64,000 bases of DNA from Flavobacterium kingsejongi (GTDB lineage: Bacteria; Bacteroidota; Bacteroidia; Flavobacteriales; Flavobacteriaceae), in the NCBI RefSeq assembly GCF_003076475.1, contig NZ_CP020919.1, positions 1,178,001-1,242,000 on the forward strand, given 5' to 3'. This document shows, piece after piece, positions 45,104 to 50,430 of this stretch (positions are counted from its first letter, which is position 1; each line of letters opens with the position of its first letter). A program made the position numbers and the translations under genes. The notes under the pieces are model-generated. The model was not told where the DNA came from. It searched no databases and saw only the letters and a list, made by a program, of their open reading frames with translations.

Positions 45104-46261
45104 ATGAAAAAGAAACAAGGCTACACATTTCGTAAATTTATTAATGACGCACATCTCTGGTTAGGAATAGCAAGTGCTATTGTCTTGTTTTTCGTATGCC
45201 TGAGCGGGACCTTATATGTGTTTCATGCTGAAGTCGATACCTGGTTGGAACCACAGAAGTTCCACATCGAGAAAATTGGTACTGCGAAAGCAGATCCGGA
45301 AATCCTGATTGCCAAAACACAAAAGGAAACAAAAGGAAAAGTAACCCGTATTACCATCCATGAAGATGCGTACCAGCCGTATGAACTCCAGGTCAGTAAA
45401 GGAAAAGAGGACAAGCGTGGAGAGACCTATTATGTGAATCCATACAATCAGGAGATCCTGGGGAATGGTAAAGGGCCTGCATCGGAGTTTTTCCGGTTTA
45501 TGTTTAAGATGCACCGATGGCTGACCTTTGACGAGGCTATTGGACGGCCGATAGTAGGCATTGCTACTCTAATCTTTGTAGTGCTCAGTATCACCGGAAT
45601 CGTATTATGGTTCCCTAAAAAAATCAAAGGTTTTAAAAGCCTTAAACCTGGTCTGGTGATTAAGCGGAAAGCCAACTGGAAACGAATCAATCATGACCTG
45701 CACAATACGTTGGGTTTTTATACTTGTATTATCATCCTGATCATGGCCTTTACCGGACTATGCTGGTCGTTTGAGTGGTATAAAGACGGTTTAAGTTCCG
45801 TGCTGGGATCTAAGGTTTTTGCACAACGAGGTGAGAAAAAGCCCCATTCAACGGTAGTACCTAATGCAAAAGCACTAACAATTTCTGAATTCCGGATACT
45901 TGCTGACAGCCTGCTTCCCTATAAAGGAAAAACAGTAATCTCGATCCCGAAATCGGTGGAAGATGCTGTAGAGATTACCAAATATGAAGCGGATGCTTTT
46001 AATGAGGCTTCGAATGACCGTTATAGTGTAGACCAGTTTACTGGTGCAGTATTGAAAAAGGATATTTTTGCAGATAAAAAATTGGGTGAAAAGATTGCTT
46101 CTCAAATCAAGCCGATCCATACCGGGGATATCTTCGGGCTTTTTTCTAAAATTATCTATTTCATTGTCTGCCTGATTGCTACAAGCCTTCCCATCACGGG
46201 TATTATTATCTGGATCAATAAACTTCGTAAACCGAAGAAAAAGAAAAAGGTTATCGTATGA
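45104..46261 (+). CDS. PepSY-associated membrane protein (PiuB/siderophore-reductase like)
   Basis: A 385-residue inner-membrane protein with four membrane helices (about 18-38, 148-170, 203-225 and 345-367) and two periplasmic PepSY-type regions between them. HLWLGIASAIVLFFVCLSGTLYVF and the histidines in HRWLTF and NHDLHNTLGFY suggest haem or metal binding. Members next to TonB receptors assist siderophore or haem-iron release, possibly by reduction. Its position 110 nt after the receptor supports this. Confidence 0.9.
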   Translation: MKKKQGYTFRKFINDAHLWLGIASAIVLFFVCLSGTLYVFHAEVDTWLEPQKFHIEKIGTAKADPEILIAKTQKETKGKVTRITIHEDAYQPYELQVSKGKEDKRGETYYVNPYNQEILGNGKGPASEFFRFMFKMHRWLTFDEAIGRPIVGIATLIFVVLSITGIVLWFPKKIKGFKSLKPGLVIKRKANWKRINHDLHNTLGFYTCIIILIMAFTGLCWSFEWYKDGLSSVLGSKVFAQRGEKKPHSTVVPNAKALTISEFRILADSLLPYKGKTVISIPKSVEDAVEITKYEADAFNEASNDRYSVDQFTGAVLKKDIFADKKLGEKIASQIKPIHTGDIFGLFSKIIYFIVCLIATSLPITGIIIWINKLRKPKKKKKVIV

Positions 46262-46304
46262 TAACAAATCTTTATAATCATAGAATTATAAATGATACGA
46301 AATC

Positions 46305-46332
46305 TTGTTATCTTTGCGGGGATATAACTTTG
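46305..46332 (+). promoter_or_regulatory. Bacilliredoxin promoter
   Basis: TTG at 46305-46307, 17-bp spacer and TAACTTTG at 46325-46332, an excellent consensus fit 25 nt before the ATG. Confidence 0.6.
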
Positions 46333-46357
46333 CAGTAATGCAACTAAACAAAAGATT

Positions 46358-46768
46358 ATGTATCCAGAAGAAATGGTAAAACCAATGCGTGCTGAGCTTT
46401 CAGACGCTGGTTTCGAAGAATTATATACTGCAGGGGCTGTTGAAAATGCAATAGCAAAACCGGGTACCACATTAGTAGTTGTAAACTCTGTTTGTGGGTG
46501 TGCTGCAAGAAATGCACGTCCAGGAGCAAAAATGAGTTTGGATAACAGTAAAAAACCAGACCATATGGTTACTGTTTTTGCTGGTGTTGACAAAGAAGCT
46601 GTTGATGCTGCCCGAGGATTTATGTTCCCTTTTCCCCCTTCTTCGCCATGTTTGGCACTTTTCAAAGATGGAGAATTGGTTCATATGCTGGAACGTCACC
46701 ATATCGAAGGACGTCCTGCTGAACTGATTGCAGAAAACCTTAAAGATGCATACGCTGAATTCTGCTAA
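46358..46768 (+). CDS. BrxA/BrxB-family bacilliredoxin
   Basis: A 136-residue cytoplasmic thioredoxin-fold protein of the YphP/YqiW family. The active site is C46-G-C48 in VVNSVCGCAARNARPG. In Firmicutes these proteins remove bacillithiol from oxidised proteins. The family is also common in Bacteroidetes, some of which make bacillithiol. FPPSSPCLALFKDGELVHMLERHHIEGR (ends FPPSSPC and HHIEGR) is the conserved C-terminal block. Confidence 0.93.
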   Translation: MYPEEMVKPMRAELSDAGFEELYTAGAVENAIAKPGTTLVVVNSVCGCAARNARPGAKMSLDNSKKPDHMVTVFAGVDKEAVDAARGFMFPFPPSSPCLALFKDGELVHMLERHHIEGRPAELIAENLKDAYAEFC

Positions 46769-46789
46769 TTAAAGCCGATTCAAAAGTAC

Positions 46790-46816
46790 AAAACCACGCT
46801 TCCTGCGTGGTTTTTT
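46790..46816 (+). terminator. Bacilliredoxin terminator
   Basis: The stem AACCACGC / GCGTGGTT has loop TTCCT and eight following T. Confidence 0.9.
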
Positions 46817-47576
46817 TTATGCCCTGATGTTAGGTGATAGCCTAGGTAAATTGGAGTAGGGTGACACTCTGGTTTCTGAACTGATTGCTATTTGCGGCAG
46901 CGGATTAAAGACCTTTTTGAATTGTGGGATCGAAAGCGGTGGCTTTGCGTAAGACTGCACTCTTTTCATGCAGATCGGGAATATATTCCTATTGTTTATC
47001 TTTCGGTTAGGCTATCCTTTCAATCCGGTTATTTTCTTTTTCTATAGGAGTGAATGAAATGACTGCAGCCTGTAATCCCTTTGCTATAGCGGCCTGAGCG
47101 GTTTCGATAGGGTAATATTCTTTTTCGATAGCGTGGATTTATGTTTCGATAAAGCCAGGTTTTCTGTCGATGAAATATGATACAGCTTCGATAAGGTATT
47201 ATTTTCTATCGATAGGCACCTATTGAGTCTCGATACACTCGGGTTCTTTGTAGATACGTTGGGATTAAGTTTCGATAAGGTGGTGTTCTTTGCCGATATA
47301 CTATGGTAAGGGTTCGGTAGGATACTATTCGCTATCGATAGGTTCGGGTTGGTTTTCGATAGGGTAAGATACCATATGGATTATATTGCATTCCGTTTCG
47401 ATATAGTATGTTTATTGGTTGATGTGAGGTGTTTGTTTACCGATCCATTATGATAAAGATCCTTCTTGTGTTGCTCTTTTTATAAAGACCATACAGTTCA
47501 TGGCTTTCAGTTCATTTGAAATGATATGCAGGTATTTTAATAGCTATAAGTGGTGTTGCATAACGGAATGTATGAT
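46817..47576. other. Gene-free stretch hosting the 21-bp repeat array
   Basis: No gene can be supported between the bacilliredoxin terminator and the TlpA-like gene. 46817-47040 shows no recognisable feature. 47041-47460 holds the periodic array described separately. 47461-47576 is unremarkable. Confidence 0.7.
47104..47460. repeat. Degenerate 21-bp tandem periodic array, 17 units, core TTTCGATA
   Basis: Units start at 47104, 47125, 47146, 47167, 47188, 47209, 47230, 47251, 47272, 47293, 47314, 47335, 47356, 47377, 47398, 47419 and 47440, every 21 bp with no insertion or deletion. Ten units begin exactly TCGATA. G at column 3 and T at column 5 occur in all 17, A at column 4 in 16. Columns 7-18 vary almost freely and columns 19-21 are T-rich. 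Weaker units (TCTATA at 47041, GCTATA at 47083) may extend it left. Minus-strand translation gives a heptapeptide with Tyr-Arg, broken by three stops, so it is not an intact gene. Confidence 0.85.
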
Positions 47577-48035
47577 TTACTCATTAAGATATTTGTCTAA
47601 TTCGAGATACAATTTGTTTCCTTCATTAGGATGGGGGGCATTATGATTGACAAGTTCCCCTTTTTTATTGTAAATCAAATAAGTAGGGATAGCACTGTTG
47701 GCAAGTTTATTAGTGCCCGTCTTATTCATTTTAGAAGTCATCAGATTGTATTTATCCCCTGAAATCCCTATTTTTCCAGAAGCTTTTTTCCATGCTTTTT
47801 CATCGAGTTCAATTGACAAGTATACAAGAACGATATCCTTCCCATCATATTTTTGATGGATATTTGGAATTTTTTTCATTTCCTTTAAACAAGGCTTACA
47901 CCAACTTGCCCAATAATCTACAAGGATAACTTTTCCTTTATTTTGAGCAATAATAGTTTCTAAAGATAATTTTTCCTGTCCATAAAATGGTACGGAATAT
48001 GCTACCATTAATAGTAGTAAGAATCGTATTTTCAT
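47577..48035 (-). CDS. TlpA-like secreted thioredoxin, third gene of the peptide cassette
   Basis: A 152-residue protein with a signal peptide (ends near FYGQ, 20) and a TlpA/ResA-type domain. The active site is YWASWCKPCLKEM (C46, C49) and the cis-Pro lies in SAIPTYLIYNKKG. It reduces or isomerises disulfides in the periplasm. It starts 3 nt after the gene at 48039 and is in one operon with the cysteine-rich double-glycine peptide, a plausible client. Confidence 0.9.
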   Translation of the reverse strand: MKIRFLLLLMVAYSVPFYGQEKLSLETIIAQNKGKVILVDYWASWCKPCLKEMKKIPNIHQKYDGKDIVLVYLSIELDEKAWKKASGKIGISGDKYNLMTSKMNKTGTNKLANSAIPTYLIYNKKGELVNHNAPHPNEGNKLYLELDKYLNE

Positions 48036-48038
48036 AGT

Positions 48039-48920
48039 TTATTTTTCAAATTCAACTTCCATTTGGAGATCACAATCCAACGACTCCCATTCCATGATTA
48101 GTTCGTTATTGTCTGTAGTTCTTAAAAGATAGGATTTTTGTTTGCTGGCAGCATCATGAAATTTAGCCCTCACAGTAGGGACAGCAGGTATTTGACCTTG
48201 TGAAGAGTTGACATATTCTGTTTTATAATCAGCCCTGTCTAAAACTTCAAAAACAATAAAAACACCTTCTTTGGGTATTTGTATTTTTTCTGATGCAACA
48301 TCAATGATGACCCATTTTTTTCTATCGCTTTTTTTTATGATTTTACTTTTGTAGATTATTGTATCCGGTAGCATTGTTATGGTATCAACACTATAGATAT
48401 TGGCTTTGAAAGGAAGGTACTTCATGTTTTTAACTCCCAGAATATCTACTAATTCGTACTTCAGGTATTGAATGTTTTTCGAGGCAAACTGTTCTTCATA
48501 AGGAATGTATAGCGATGCCCTATCTTTATAAACAAAGTTAATGGAATAATCCATGAGGTGTTTTAAAACAGATATCCCAAAATTATTTTTAATTTTATTT
48601 TTTTCAACCTTTACTTCTTGGAGATTATGATTCAGCGGGGTAAGAAAAAAAGTAGTAGCAGAATTGATAAGGATGGTGTCTTTATAGTTGAGGTGTGTCA
48701 CTTTTAGAAACCGGAATTTCGGGTCTGAATTTACTGCTCCTTTGATGTTAGAGATATATGTTACAGTATCATTGGTATTGAAATATTTTACACTAACATC
48801 CTGGATCGGCTCCTTTGTTGCCAAGTCCAAAAAATAGGTGGCGCTTCTAAGGTTGTTATCTTGTGAATAACAATTGTTATAGATTACAGACAATAATGCA
48901 ATGATGTATAGTTTATTCAT
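48039..48920 (-). CDS. Secreted protein with carboxypeptidase-regulatory-like N-terminus, function unknown
   Basis: A 293-residue protein with a signal peptide ending at CYSQ (20). Residues 25-100 look like the beta-sandwich found at the start of TonB receptors (FLDLATKEPIQDVSVKYFNTNDT, then PLNHNLQEVKV), but no receptor follows. The rest is mixed alpha/beta and not recognised. It is the middle gene between a double-glycine peptide and a TlpA-like thioredoxin. It may bind or present the peptide at the outer membrane, by context only. Confidence 0.82.
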   Translation of the reverse strand: MNKLYIIALLSVIYNNCYSQDNNLRSATYFLDLATKEPIQDVSVKYFNTNDTVTYISNIKGAVNSDPKFRFLKVTHLNYKDTILINSATTFFLTPLNHNLQEVKVEKNKIKNNFGISVLKHLMDYSINFVYKDRASLYIPYEEQFASKNIQYLKYELVDILGVKNMKYLPFKANIYSVDTITMLPDTIIYKSKIIKKSDRKKWVIIDVASEKIQIPKEGVFIVFEVLDRADYKTEYVNSSQGQIPAVPTVRAKFHDAASKQKSYLLRTTDNNELIMEWESLDCDLQMEVEFEK

Positions 48921-48932
48921 GAATAAGAGATA

Positions 48933-48960
48933 TGCGGTTTTTCAATACTGAAAAACCGCA
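48933..48960. promoter_or_regulatory. Intercistronic hairpin after the peptide gene
   Basis: A 12-bp perfect stem TGCGGTTTTTCA / TGAAAAACCGCA with loop ATAC lies between the peptide gene and the next gene. The leftward transcript has no T-run after it, so it would act as a partial terminator or RNA-stabilising hairpin, giving more peptide than downstream products. Confidence 0.6.
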
Positions 48961-48976
48961 TTTTTATTTAGTTCAA

Positions 48977-49225
48977 TTAGCAGTCCGCTTCAATCGTAGT
49001 ATGGCCTGTTGTGATACCTAAAAATGATTTCTCACAAGTGAAATAGCATTTCATAGCAACAGGCACCAGTTCTCCAGCATTCGGACCGGCTGTAGTGCCT
49101 GGTTGATATATAAAGTGCTCGCTGCCTATTTGGCCCACACAGTTTCTAATACCACCATTAATACTCTTTTGTTGTGTTTTACTTAAAACCTGAATACCTT
49201 CTAAATTTAGTACATCTTTTAACAT
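48977..49225 (-). CDS. Double-glycine-leader cysteine-rich peptide precursor (bacteriocin-like)
   Basis: An 82-residue precursor. Residues 1-25 form a leader typical of peptides exported by peptidase-containing ABC transporters, with LSKTQQKSINGG ending at Gly24-Gly25. The 57-residue product has four cysteines (29, 60, 64, 82) and is rich in Gly, Thr and Ile. It resembles the bacteriocin-like or natural-product precursors of Bacteroidetes. Whether it is an antimicrobial, a signal or a substrate for modification is unknown. No exporter is nearby. Confidence 0.8.
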   Translation of the reverse strand: MLKDVLNLEGIQVLSKTQQKSINGGIRNCVGQIGSEHFIYQPGTTAGPNAGELVPVAMKCYFTCEKSFLGITTGHTTIEADC

Positions 49226-49629
49226 AATCTCAATGTTTAATTTATTAATTACCCAAACGGTTTAAGTCAGCCGGGCTTCTGACTACTCTTGCAAGAATAT
49301 TATGAACTCCAAACCATCATCATGGATAAGGTGCCGAAATGAGACCCATTTAATGCAATAACTAATGTTCTGTTAGGGGAATGAGAAGAATTACTGATTA
49401 TATCCTAAAGATATAGCAAAAGAGACAATAATAAATGCGTGTTGTATTTTAAAATCTCAAATGGTGAATATTAAAAACATTTTTTTAGTTAATAGTCAAA
49501 TGCTTGCGTAGGTGTGTTTACTAATCGTAAATAATAGTAACCACTTTAATGTAGAATTCTAAATAGGTATTTGTTGGTAATAGCTAACCAGTACAAAACA
49601 ATATGTTGCATAAAAAAGCAAAGGCTCTT
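49226..49629. other. Gene-free region upstream of the peptide cassette
   Basis: A 404-bp AT-rich stretch that should hold the peptide promoter, although no clean TAnnTTTG box was found on the minus strand. The palindrome TAGAATTCTA at 49552-49561 continues as AATAGG and resembles the iron-box half site TTCTAAATA. Nothing else is recognised. Confidence 0.5.
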
Positions 49630-50430
49630 TTATAACCGTTGTTGAAACGTATAGCCCAATTCTGAAATCACTTTTTGGCTATCGATTGTTTTCCCTTTTG
49701 AAGGTACGTCATTTTCAAATTCAGGTAACGGCAGTTGCAACTCCTTGGCTTTTTGAGTGTAATATTCCTTGCGGGAGGGATGGTGAGGAGCTGCCGCATT
49801 GAAAGTGGTATTCCAGCTTTCTTTAGCGATAATTTGCTGCAAAATCCCAATACAGTCGTCCTGATGGATTAGATTGATGGGAGCATCCGGATCTTTGATG
49901 CCTGTTTTACCGGAGAGGAACTTTACCGGATGCCGGTCTTCACCGATTAATCCTGCAAAGCGGACTACGGTCGTGTTGAAGCCGGGATCGTTCTGCAATA
50001 GTTTTTCGGCTTCCAATAATTGGATGCCGGAATCAGTTTCCGGTTGTGCGAGGGTAGTGACTGTAACTGTAGTATTATCATCGGCATAGACCGAAGTAGA
50101 GCTGATGAAAATTACATTAGTAATAGATGCGCTTTTTATTTCGGGAATAAGATGCGCTATTTTGGGCACAAAATTTTCCTTTACGGCTCCGCGTAACTTT
50201 GGGGGAATATCAATGAGGAGTGTTTCAACACCTTCAAGGAATGCGGTTATAGCGCCTTCATTTCCGTCGGCTCCCAGTGTAATCTGGAAGGGTATAATGC
50301 CTGCAGCTTCCAATATGGGGAGTTTTGCAGGGGTAGTGGTGGATCCTTTAATTCGGTATCCTTGTGTTATAAGCTGTTGTGCTAATGGGAATCCCAGCCA
50401 GCCACAGCCCAGTATTGCGATCGTTTTCAT
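49630..50430 (-). CDS. NAD(P)-dependent epimerase/dehydratase-like protein
   Basis: A 266-residue Rossmann-fold protein of the extended SDR group (YeeZ-like). The dinucleotide motif is GCGWLGFPLA (8-17). VIFISSTSVYAD has the Ser/Tyr region, but the usual YxxxK is not clear, so it may be a weak or atypical enzyme. The substrate is unknown. It overlaps the preceding zinc-ribbon gene by 4 nt (ATGA). Confidence 0.88.
   Translation of the reverse strand: MKTIAILGCGWLGFPLAQQLITQGYRIKGSTTTPAKLPILEAAGIIPFQITLGADGNEGAITAFLEGVETLLIDIPPKLRGAVKENFVPKIAHLIPEIKSASITNVIFISSTSVYADDNTTVTVTTLAQPETDSGIQLLEAEKLLQNDPGFNTTVVRFAGLIGEDRHPVKFLSGKTGIKDPDAPINLIHQDDCIGILQQIIAKESWNTTFNAAAPHHPSRKEYYTQKAKELQLPLPEFENDVPSKGKTIDSQKVISELGYTFQQRL

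Follow-up and report, generated by a model that had tools for sequence, protein, structure and literature searches.

In plasmid iterons and ParR-type centromeres, tandem sites about two helix turns apart are bound by an assembling protein. In CRISPR arrays, nearly identical repeats longer than 20 bp alternate with unique spacers, and cas genes are present. Closest to the locus analysed here are the non-coding tandem repeats that Subirana and Messeguer described in Bacillus (PMC8161180), which have a constant size of 20–21 or 52 nt, are species-specific and retain a short signal within the repeats, such as TCGCGG in B. weihaiensis. The shorter class is defined by at least four repeats, most of them identical in length, of 20–21 nt; this type, whose size corresponds to two helix turns, is present across many bacterial groups, and the Bacillus genomes rich in 21-nt repeats carry 22–29 of them. 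In the 52-nt class the signals plus their reverse often occur within one repeat, and 52-nt repeats are reported to be transcribed in B. coagulans. The authors proposed a protein that needs a constant repeat size and polymerises on DNA, with RNA as the alternative (PMC8161180). A 2019 survey (PMC6749651) and a 2020 J Bacteriol paper cited in PMC8161180 come from the same authors. Intergenic direct repeats of the sequence TAACTGA are described from Beggiatoaceae, Cyanobacteria and some Bacteroidetes (PMC4679880). The literature searched, with most subscription papers outside its reach, yielded no earlier report of the array described here (array 1).

Seventeen units in exact phase and their sister arrays

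Array 1 lies in the window, the whole 64,000-nt stretch of DNA analysed, which corresponds to C1:1178001-1242000 of a single-contig 4.22-Mb genome. The analysis upheld the claim of an earlier note that 17 units follow one another at exact 21-bp steps from 47104 to 47440. Units were cut at these steps and the array ends were set by phase, which means that an indel may merely mark where an array stops. Autocorrelation bears out the period: the lag-21 identity of array 1 is 0.515 (best 336 bp), above every one of 300 dinucleotide shuffles of 46800-47600 (lags 5–60; mean 0.357, maximum 0.393). When the best place in the whole window was taken for each lag from 5 to 100, lags 42, 84, 21 and 63 at array 1 ranked as the top four (0.503–0.548), and none of the remaining lags rose above 0.396. 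Tandem Repeats Finder, proposed as an alternative check, detected just 47101-47151 (2.4 copies) and mostly missed the array.

The core counts reported earlier were reproduced, with TCGATA exact in 10 of the 17 units and G3 and T5 present in all 17. The linkers, described earlier as nearly unrelated, are not wholly so, because further columns are conserved, namely T15 (17/17), T10 (14), T16 (13), T20 (13) and G13 (10).

The array occupies a gene-free stretch whose length of 808 bp was confirmed, from the end of one ORF (+) to the end of a convergent one (-) (Table 1). The left neighbour is a disulphide isomerase, which we take to be of the BrxA/YphP type. Terminator-like sites number four in 46300-47700, compared with 1.2 (sd 1.1) in shuffles. 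On the other side, a 293-aa protein (48039-48920, -) adjoins the thioredoxin-like gene, and a peptide of 82 aa whose short leader is followed by a GG motif (48977-49225, -) is encoded next to them; neither has a Pfam match.

Table 1. Array 1, its flanking features and the related arrays. Positions are those of the window unless C1 is given
Feature	Position	Strand	Remarks
Left neighbour, disulphide isomerase, 136 aa	46358..46768	+	Pfam PF06491 Disulph_isomer, E 1.3e-62
Terminator-like hairpin	46790..46814	+ and -	between left gene and array 1; plus-strand match ends in a T run; minus-strand match too
Four in-phase 21-mers, weak or no motif match	46999..47082	+	percentiles given in the text
End unit GCTATAGCGGCCTGAGCGGTT, G+C-rich	47083..47103	+	also at left end of array 2; more diverged in array 3
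Array 1, 17 units of 21 bp	47104..47460	+	consensus of arrays 1-3 about TCGATAgg(a/g)TAaGATTnnTw
Right neighbour, thioredoxin-like protein, convergent	47577..48035	-	Pfam PF13905 Thioredoxin_8, E 3.2e-12
Array 2, 15 units	about C1:1921612-1921926	+	21-bp steps
Array 3, 15 units	about C1:1467372-1467686	-	21-bp steps
Array 4, looser relative	about C1:3.8025-3.8029 Mb	-	weak match of the model of arrays 1-3, E 0.17

A blastn search of array 1 against its own genome revealed a second array through a 49-bp match at C1:1921591 (E 3e-10), and a match at C1:1467661 turned out to belong to a third. A sequence model trained on 12 four-unit windows from arrays 1–3 has strong matches in the genome to these three arrays only. 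The relationship does not depend on the data from array 1: by a motif derived from arrays 2 and 3 only, 15 of the 17 array 1 units reach percentile 0.994 or higher among the 21-mers of both strands of the window, the two lower ones being those at 47377 (0.929) and 47440 (0.985). The register sum of this motif on array 1 is +170, and it is negative at the 20 other offsets. The earlier note had also extended the phase leftward to 47041. By the same motif the in-phase 21-mers at 46999, 47020, 47041, 47062 and 47083 reach percentiles 0.994, 0.995, 0.960, 0.908 and 0.895; the extension is upheld only in part, the first four matching weakly or not at all and the last being a special end unit. The 21-mer at 47041 (TCTATAGGAGTGAATGAAATG) is, by eye, similar to the units of array 4.

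The left end unit is common to arrays 1 and 2, both of which match CTATAGYGGCCKGAGYGGTTTCGATA with 0 mismatches, and even with up to 3 mismatches allowed it has no further occurrence in the genome; array 3 carries a more diverged form (recognised by eye, outside 3 mismatches). The end unit and the first unit are alike between arrays (by eye). Duplication of a whole array was considered and rejected, as linker identity between arrays favours no particular unit offset. The arrays also follow no common pattern of chromosomal position or polarity, lying at 1.225 (+), 1.467 (-), 1.921 (+) and 3.80 (-) Mb; a DnaA N-terminal domain is encoded at C1:16-204.

Array 4, with the unit TTTCkATAGGnGTGnATTnAA, has a 21-bp period in which two unit types alternate. 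Its motif is closer to that of arrays 1–3 than column-permuted versions are (P 0.0175), and its relation to them is therefore loose at best. The array (L059 1353-1740) reads as a young 42-bp higher-order repeat and is located directly upstream of a transposase-like gene.

Core symmetry and column conservation

When the motif was scored against its reverse complement about each of the 21 centres, the core emerged as an imperfect palindrome, TnTCGAnA, centred on TC|GA (pooled P 0.008; 47 units, column permutation). This centre is the best one in each of arrays 1, 2 and 3; taken singly, the arrays give P values of 0.031, 0.003 and 0.084, the last being marginal. The corresponding test on array 4 was not significant (P 0.27). 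T10 and T16 occupy mirror positions, yet they are non-complementary, and G13 and T15 make the 21-bp unit directional.

Conservation is distributed unevenly over the unit. Among the 47 units of arrays 1–3, G3 is invariant (47), followed by A4 (43), T1 (42), T10 (40), A6 (38), C2 and T20 (37 each) and G13 and T15 (36 each). In array 1 the column identities have an SD of 0.27, whereas 2000 simulations of uniform decay reached a maximum of 0.20; uniform decay of array 1 is thus rejected. Nor are adjacent units clearly closer to each other than all pairs are: linker identities for adjacent and all pairs are 0.367 and 0.409 in array 1, 0.429 and 0.444 in array 2, and 0.462 and 0.452 in array 3. The uneven columns and the missing neighbour effect indicate that slippage left no clear trace in arrays 1–3 and that their units are kept near a common 21-bp consensus. 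Exact phase is maintained in runs of 17, 15 and 15 units despite a linker identity of about 0.41–0.45. Under the usual neutral ratios of substitutions to indels, several indels would be expected at such linker divergence. Arrays 1–3 show no consistent bend: intrinsic curvature, taken from the AA/TT phasor at 10.5 bp, ranks them at percentiles 0.88, 0.09 and 0.89 of the window.

Distribution among relatives and parallels in other bacteria

Searches among relatives did not recover array 1. At E<=1e-4 the model of arrays 1–3 did not detect it in any of 397 further genomes of the genus; these and the own genome make up 398 genomes drawn from a larger group, and searches of more than 40 genomes had stricter filters and lose weak matches. 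Matches at this threshold came from four genomes, the own one, G371, G613 and G667. Clear periodicity is missing from those in G371 and G613 (lag-21 identity 0.351 and 0.411), and G667 holds a different 21-bp array with the core GGTATCRATACC. A nine-unit 21-bp array with the core GGTATCRATACC was seen in a genome of the genus other than the own one (L072 1449-1637; L177 5197-5385). L177 reads the same as the G667 array and is therefore taken as one locus with it; variation in the core of this array is frequently from CG to TG or CA.

In a sample of 100 relatives that overlaps the other genus samples, 29 genomes, the own one among them, have a match at E<=0.01, and outside the own genome nothing exceeds 22 bits. 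Three exact TCGATA cores at 21 bp occur in two of 299 genomes of the family, the own genome and G297, the latter with a lag-21 identity of 0.375 and no array; a backward control pattern likewise matched in two. A blastn search of 46340-48060 against 101 genomes of the genus, in which the best three candidates per genome were scored, gave among the matches listed none over array 1 outside the own genome. That no sampled congener carries array 1 points to rapid turnover at no conserved position, which is unexpected for a core chromosomal function.

More distant parallels were collected with an exact pattern, TATYRATA three times at 21-bp spacing, which matched 115 stretches in 84,980 species genomes. 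Numerous high-identity 21-bp arrays are among them, and 27 of the 115 have at least five units and a linker identity below 0.6; seven of these 27 come from Bacillus sp. cl95, and seven of the 27 overlap an ATG-started ORF of at least 90 aa. The search pattern is palindromic and its 21 bp were fixed beforehand, so the core and the period of the parallels are not independent evidence. What the parallels demonstrate is the existence of such arrays, not a preference for 21 bp or for a TCGATA-type core. The period is not unique, since equal-gap TCGATA triples occur at other spacings: among the matches listed and by eye, a free-gap control over 395 Bacteroidota-level genomes contains triples at 7, 12, 14, 22, 23 and 33, and at 21 bp in two other genomes, G773 and G902. 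Tandem 7-mers TCGATAG, seven being a third of 21, appear among the control matches listed in other genomes of the phylum, at G1089:C4:15639-15728 and G793:C106.

The 14 arrays aligned from Bacillus sp. cl95 (L249-L261, G1099) have kept cores, unlike linkers and a 21-bp period; two of them, L250 and L261, lose the 21-bp register late in the array. Their near-fixed plan comprises four TATCRATA units at 21 bp, often preceded on the left by GGGTAT; in most arrays TATCGATATGTCGACA and CGACAY follow, in several an ATACC-like box comes after, and the linkers vary between copies. The palindrome test was not significant for this set (P 0.29; 12 of the 14 arrays, with L250 and L261, of four units each, omitted). 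The Saprospiraceae MAG UBA7687 (G1103) has 21-bp arrays at four intergenic loci, L263-L266, of roughly 0.7–1 kb by periodicity profile, again with cores kept and linkers unlike. Two unit types, TATCGATATTGATTTAGTATA and nnTGACTATTCATTAAGGCTT, appear there in one phase. With L264 as the source of the motif, the second type lies on the phase of the first in 3/3 matches in L265 and 2/2 in L263; L266 gave no such match on the array strand and one on the other strand, a base off. Both unit types pass the palindrome test at another centre, with P <0.001 (0/1000 permutations) and P 0.003, from two of the four loci for one type and one locus for the other. In the L263B block adjacent units are closer (0.547) than all pairs (0.466), a neighbour effect that indicates slippage.

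Proposed function, rival readings and comparison with known systems

The earlier note had offered two readings, a phased array of binding sites and a decayed heptapeptide-repeat gene. The first is now the better supported, by the uneven columns of array 1, the missing neighbour effect, the imperfect palindromic core and the occurrence of the motif in dispersed arrays; the second is not supported. From these sequence features we infer, with a confidence that is about even, that array 1 is a non-coding array of ~17 putative sites at which a DNA-binding protein, sequence-specific and probably a homodimer, would attach. A site would consist of the imperfect palindromic core TnTCGAnA and a one-sided part, T10..G13.T15T16. 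As 21 bp equal two turns of B-DNA, the exact spacing would place all cores on one face, where bound dimers could touch and coat the array as a regular nucleoprotein filament. With the three strong arrays and the looser fourth dispersed over intergenic regions, the likeliest role would be an architectural one in the chromosome, through local compaction, anchoring or insulation, and not the control of one gene. The period far above shuffles, the parallels in Bacillus sp. cl95 and the Saprospiraceae MAG and the polymerising protein proposed in PMC8161180 also favour this reading; the turnover among congeners, the palindrome results for array 4 and the Bacillus set, the occurrence of other periods, the slippage in L263B and a borderline deficit of stops in one reading frame count against it.

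The main rival, which we regard as unlikely, is a neutral minisatellite whose 21-bp units arose by replication slippage and are now decaying without function. Slippage amplification does happen in such arrays, as the youth of array 4 in the same genome (lag-42 identity 0.95, two alternating types) and the near-identical neighbours in L263B indicate; many high-identity 21-bp arrays exist elsewhere, other periods occur, and the absence of array 1 from the sampled congeners would also fit. The rejection of uniform decay in array 1, arrays 1–3 lacking a clear neighbour effect and the exact phase of units with so little linker identity, within ends set by phase, argue against it. A transcribed repeat RNA, acting as a sponge or a small-RNA precursor, is improbable, although an RNA was also floated for the constant-size repeats and their 52-nt class was reported to be transcribed in B. 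coagulans (PMC8161180). In its favour, the base composition of the arrays differs between strands (array 1: T 0.384, G 0.246, C 0.129). However, folding of both strands of arrays 1–3 gave z-scores of only -0.28 to -1.89 (60 shuffles each), the two weak Rfam matches in 46200-49800 (E 0.14 and 0.15) are below gathering score and outside array 1, and a terminator-like hairpin separates the array from the left gene. Thus, neither Rfam (array 1) nor folding (arrays 1–3) identifies a known structured RNA.

That the array is a decayed heptapeptide-repeat gene, in the frame F-D-R-I-R-F-x, is very unlikely. The minus-strand Tyr-Arg frame singled out in the earlier note does have three stops, with 4.2 expected from column shuffles, and in no frame of the six are stops significantly depleted in arrays 1–3. 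The lowest count belongs to the plus-strand F-D frame, which is open over the 15 units of array 2 and has 5 stops pooled over arrays 1–3 compared with 8.75 expected (P 0.06). Second codon positions are the most conserved class when pooled (0.825 versus 0.649 and 0.517 bits) and in arrays 2 and 3, and one column in three is more conserved in L263A and L264A (0.87 and 0.75 versus about 0.5). Against a coding origin, the strongly conserved columns C2, T5 and T20 are third positions of the F-D frame, the G+C of its third positions is 0.36–0.43 compared with 0.25 in the neighbouring gene, and the matching frame of L263A and L264A has about as many stops as expected (2 and 5 versus 3.0 and 5.8). For the ORF of array 4 and the frame that stays open in array 2, Pfam gave no significant match (best E 0.16). 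In arrays 1 and 2 an in-frame TAA is read just left of the array, and the interval from it to the first unit holds no ATG, GTG or TTG. The least probable reading is a plasmid-type site, an iteron set or a partition centromere, left after a mobile element integrated. Iterons and ParR-type centromeres are likewise spaced about two turns, but Pfam revealed no Rep or Par protein among the six neighbour proteins of array 1, a blastn search with the array had no match among 72,556 plasmid and 50,697 phage records, and there are three separate loci.

The reading of array 1 as a set of protein-binding sites can be extended, tentatively, to other species. Such arrays might be polymerisation tracks, in which a fast-evolving DNA-binding dimer co-evolves with its own species-specific 21-bp site and the two-turn spacing is retained. 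Each species would fix its own core, and the spacing would stay as the protein filament forms on one face of the DNA; the Saprospiraceae arrays of 0.7–1 kb, with two unit types apparently in phase, would then be the most elaborate form. If true, this co-evolution would be a bacterial counterpart of satellite-centromere evolution.

Array 1 is informative because its units have diverged enough to reveal the bases that are held, an imperfect palindrome plus a one-sided extension, and this divergence argues for a separate constraint on each unit and on the spacing. It provides a concrete probe for finding the putative binding protein, and the three strong arrays sum to only about 1 kb, which makes the removal of all three feasible.

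Like a CRISPR array, array 1 alternates a constant core with variable sequence and has an end unit on one side. In contrast to CRISPR, the core is about 6–8 bp, the linker about 13 bp, the cores are divergent and the period is 21 bp; with cores that vary and no Cas domain among the six neighbour proteins scanned with Pfam, a CRISPR array was rejected. Plasmid iterons and partition centromeres share with array 1 direct repeats at about two helix turns, but no replication or partition gene is found among its six neighbours. The TAACTGA repeats (PMC4679880) resemble array 1 in being short, intergenic, scattered over the genome, patchy in distribution including Bacteroidetes, and without an explained binder. 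They are 7-mers that in the main genome mostly lie just upstream of a start codon, unlike array 1, which has a 21-bp period and lies between convergent genes.

The closest match is the constant-size class of PMC8161180. Arrays 1–3 have 17, 15 and 15 units in 21-bp steps; stop counts in the six frames of arrays 1–3 and Pfam on the frames of arrays 2 and 4 reveal no clear coding signal, with a borderline P 0.06 in one frame; the genome has several species-specific arrays (three strong ones and a looser fourth, with none in 397 congeners at E<=1e-4); and TCGATA is their characteristic short sequence (G3 in 47/47 units, T1 in 42/47). The period, the non-coding nature, the presence of several arrays per genome, the species specificity, the short kept signal and the unexplained role are thus the same. 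The differences are a Flavobacteriaceae-like host and a number of arrays of 3–4, which is counted here for one motif alone. A palindrome test on 21-nt repeats, the missing neighbour effect, a shared end unit and two unit types in phase are absent from PMC8161180. Array 1 fits this known, unexplained class of 20–21 nt repeats; bacterial non-coding repeats of this constant size have been catalogued yet not explained, and among them array 1 is unusually informative.
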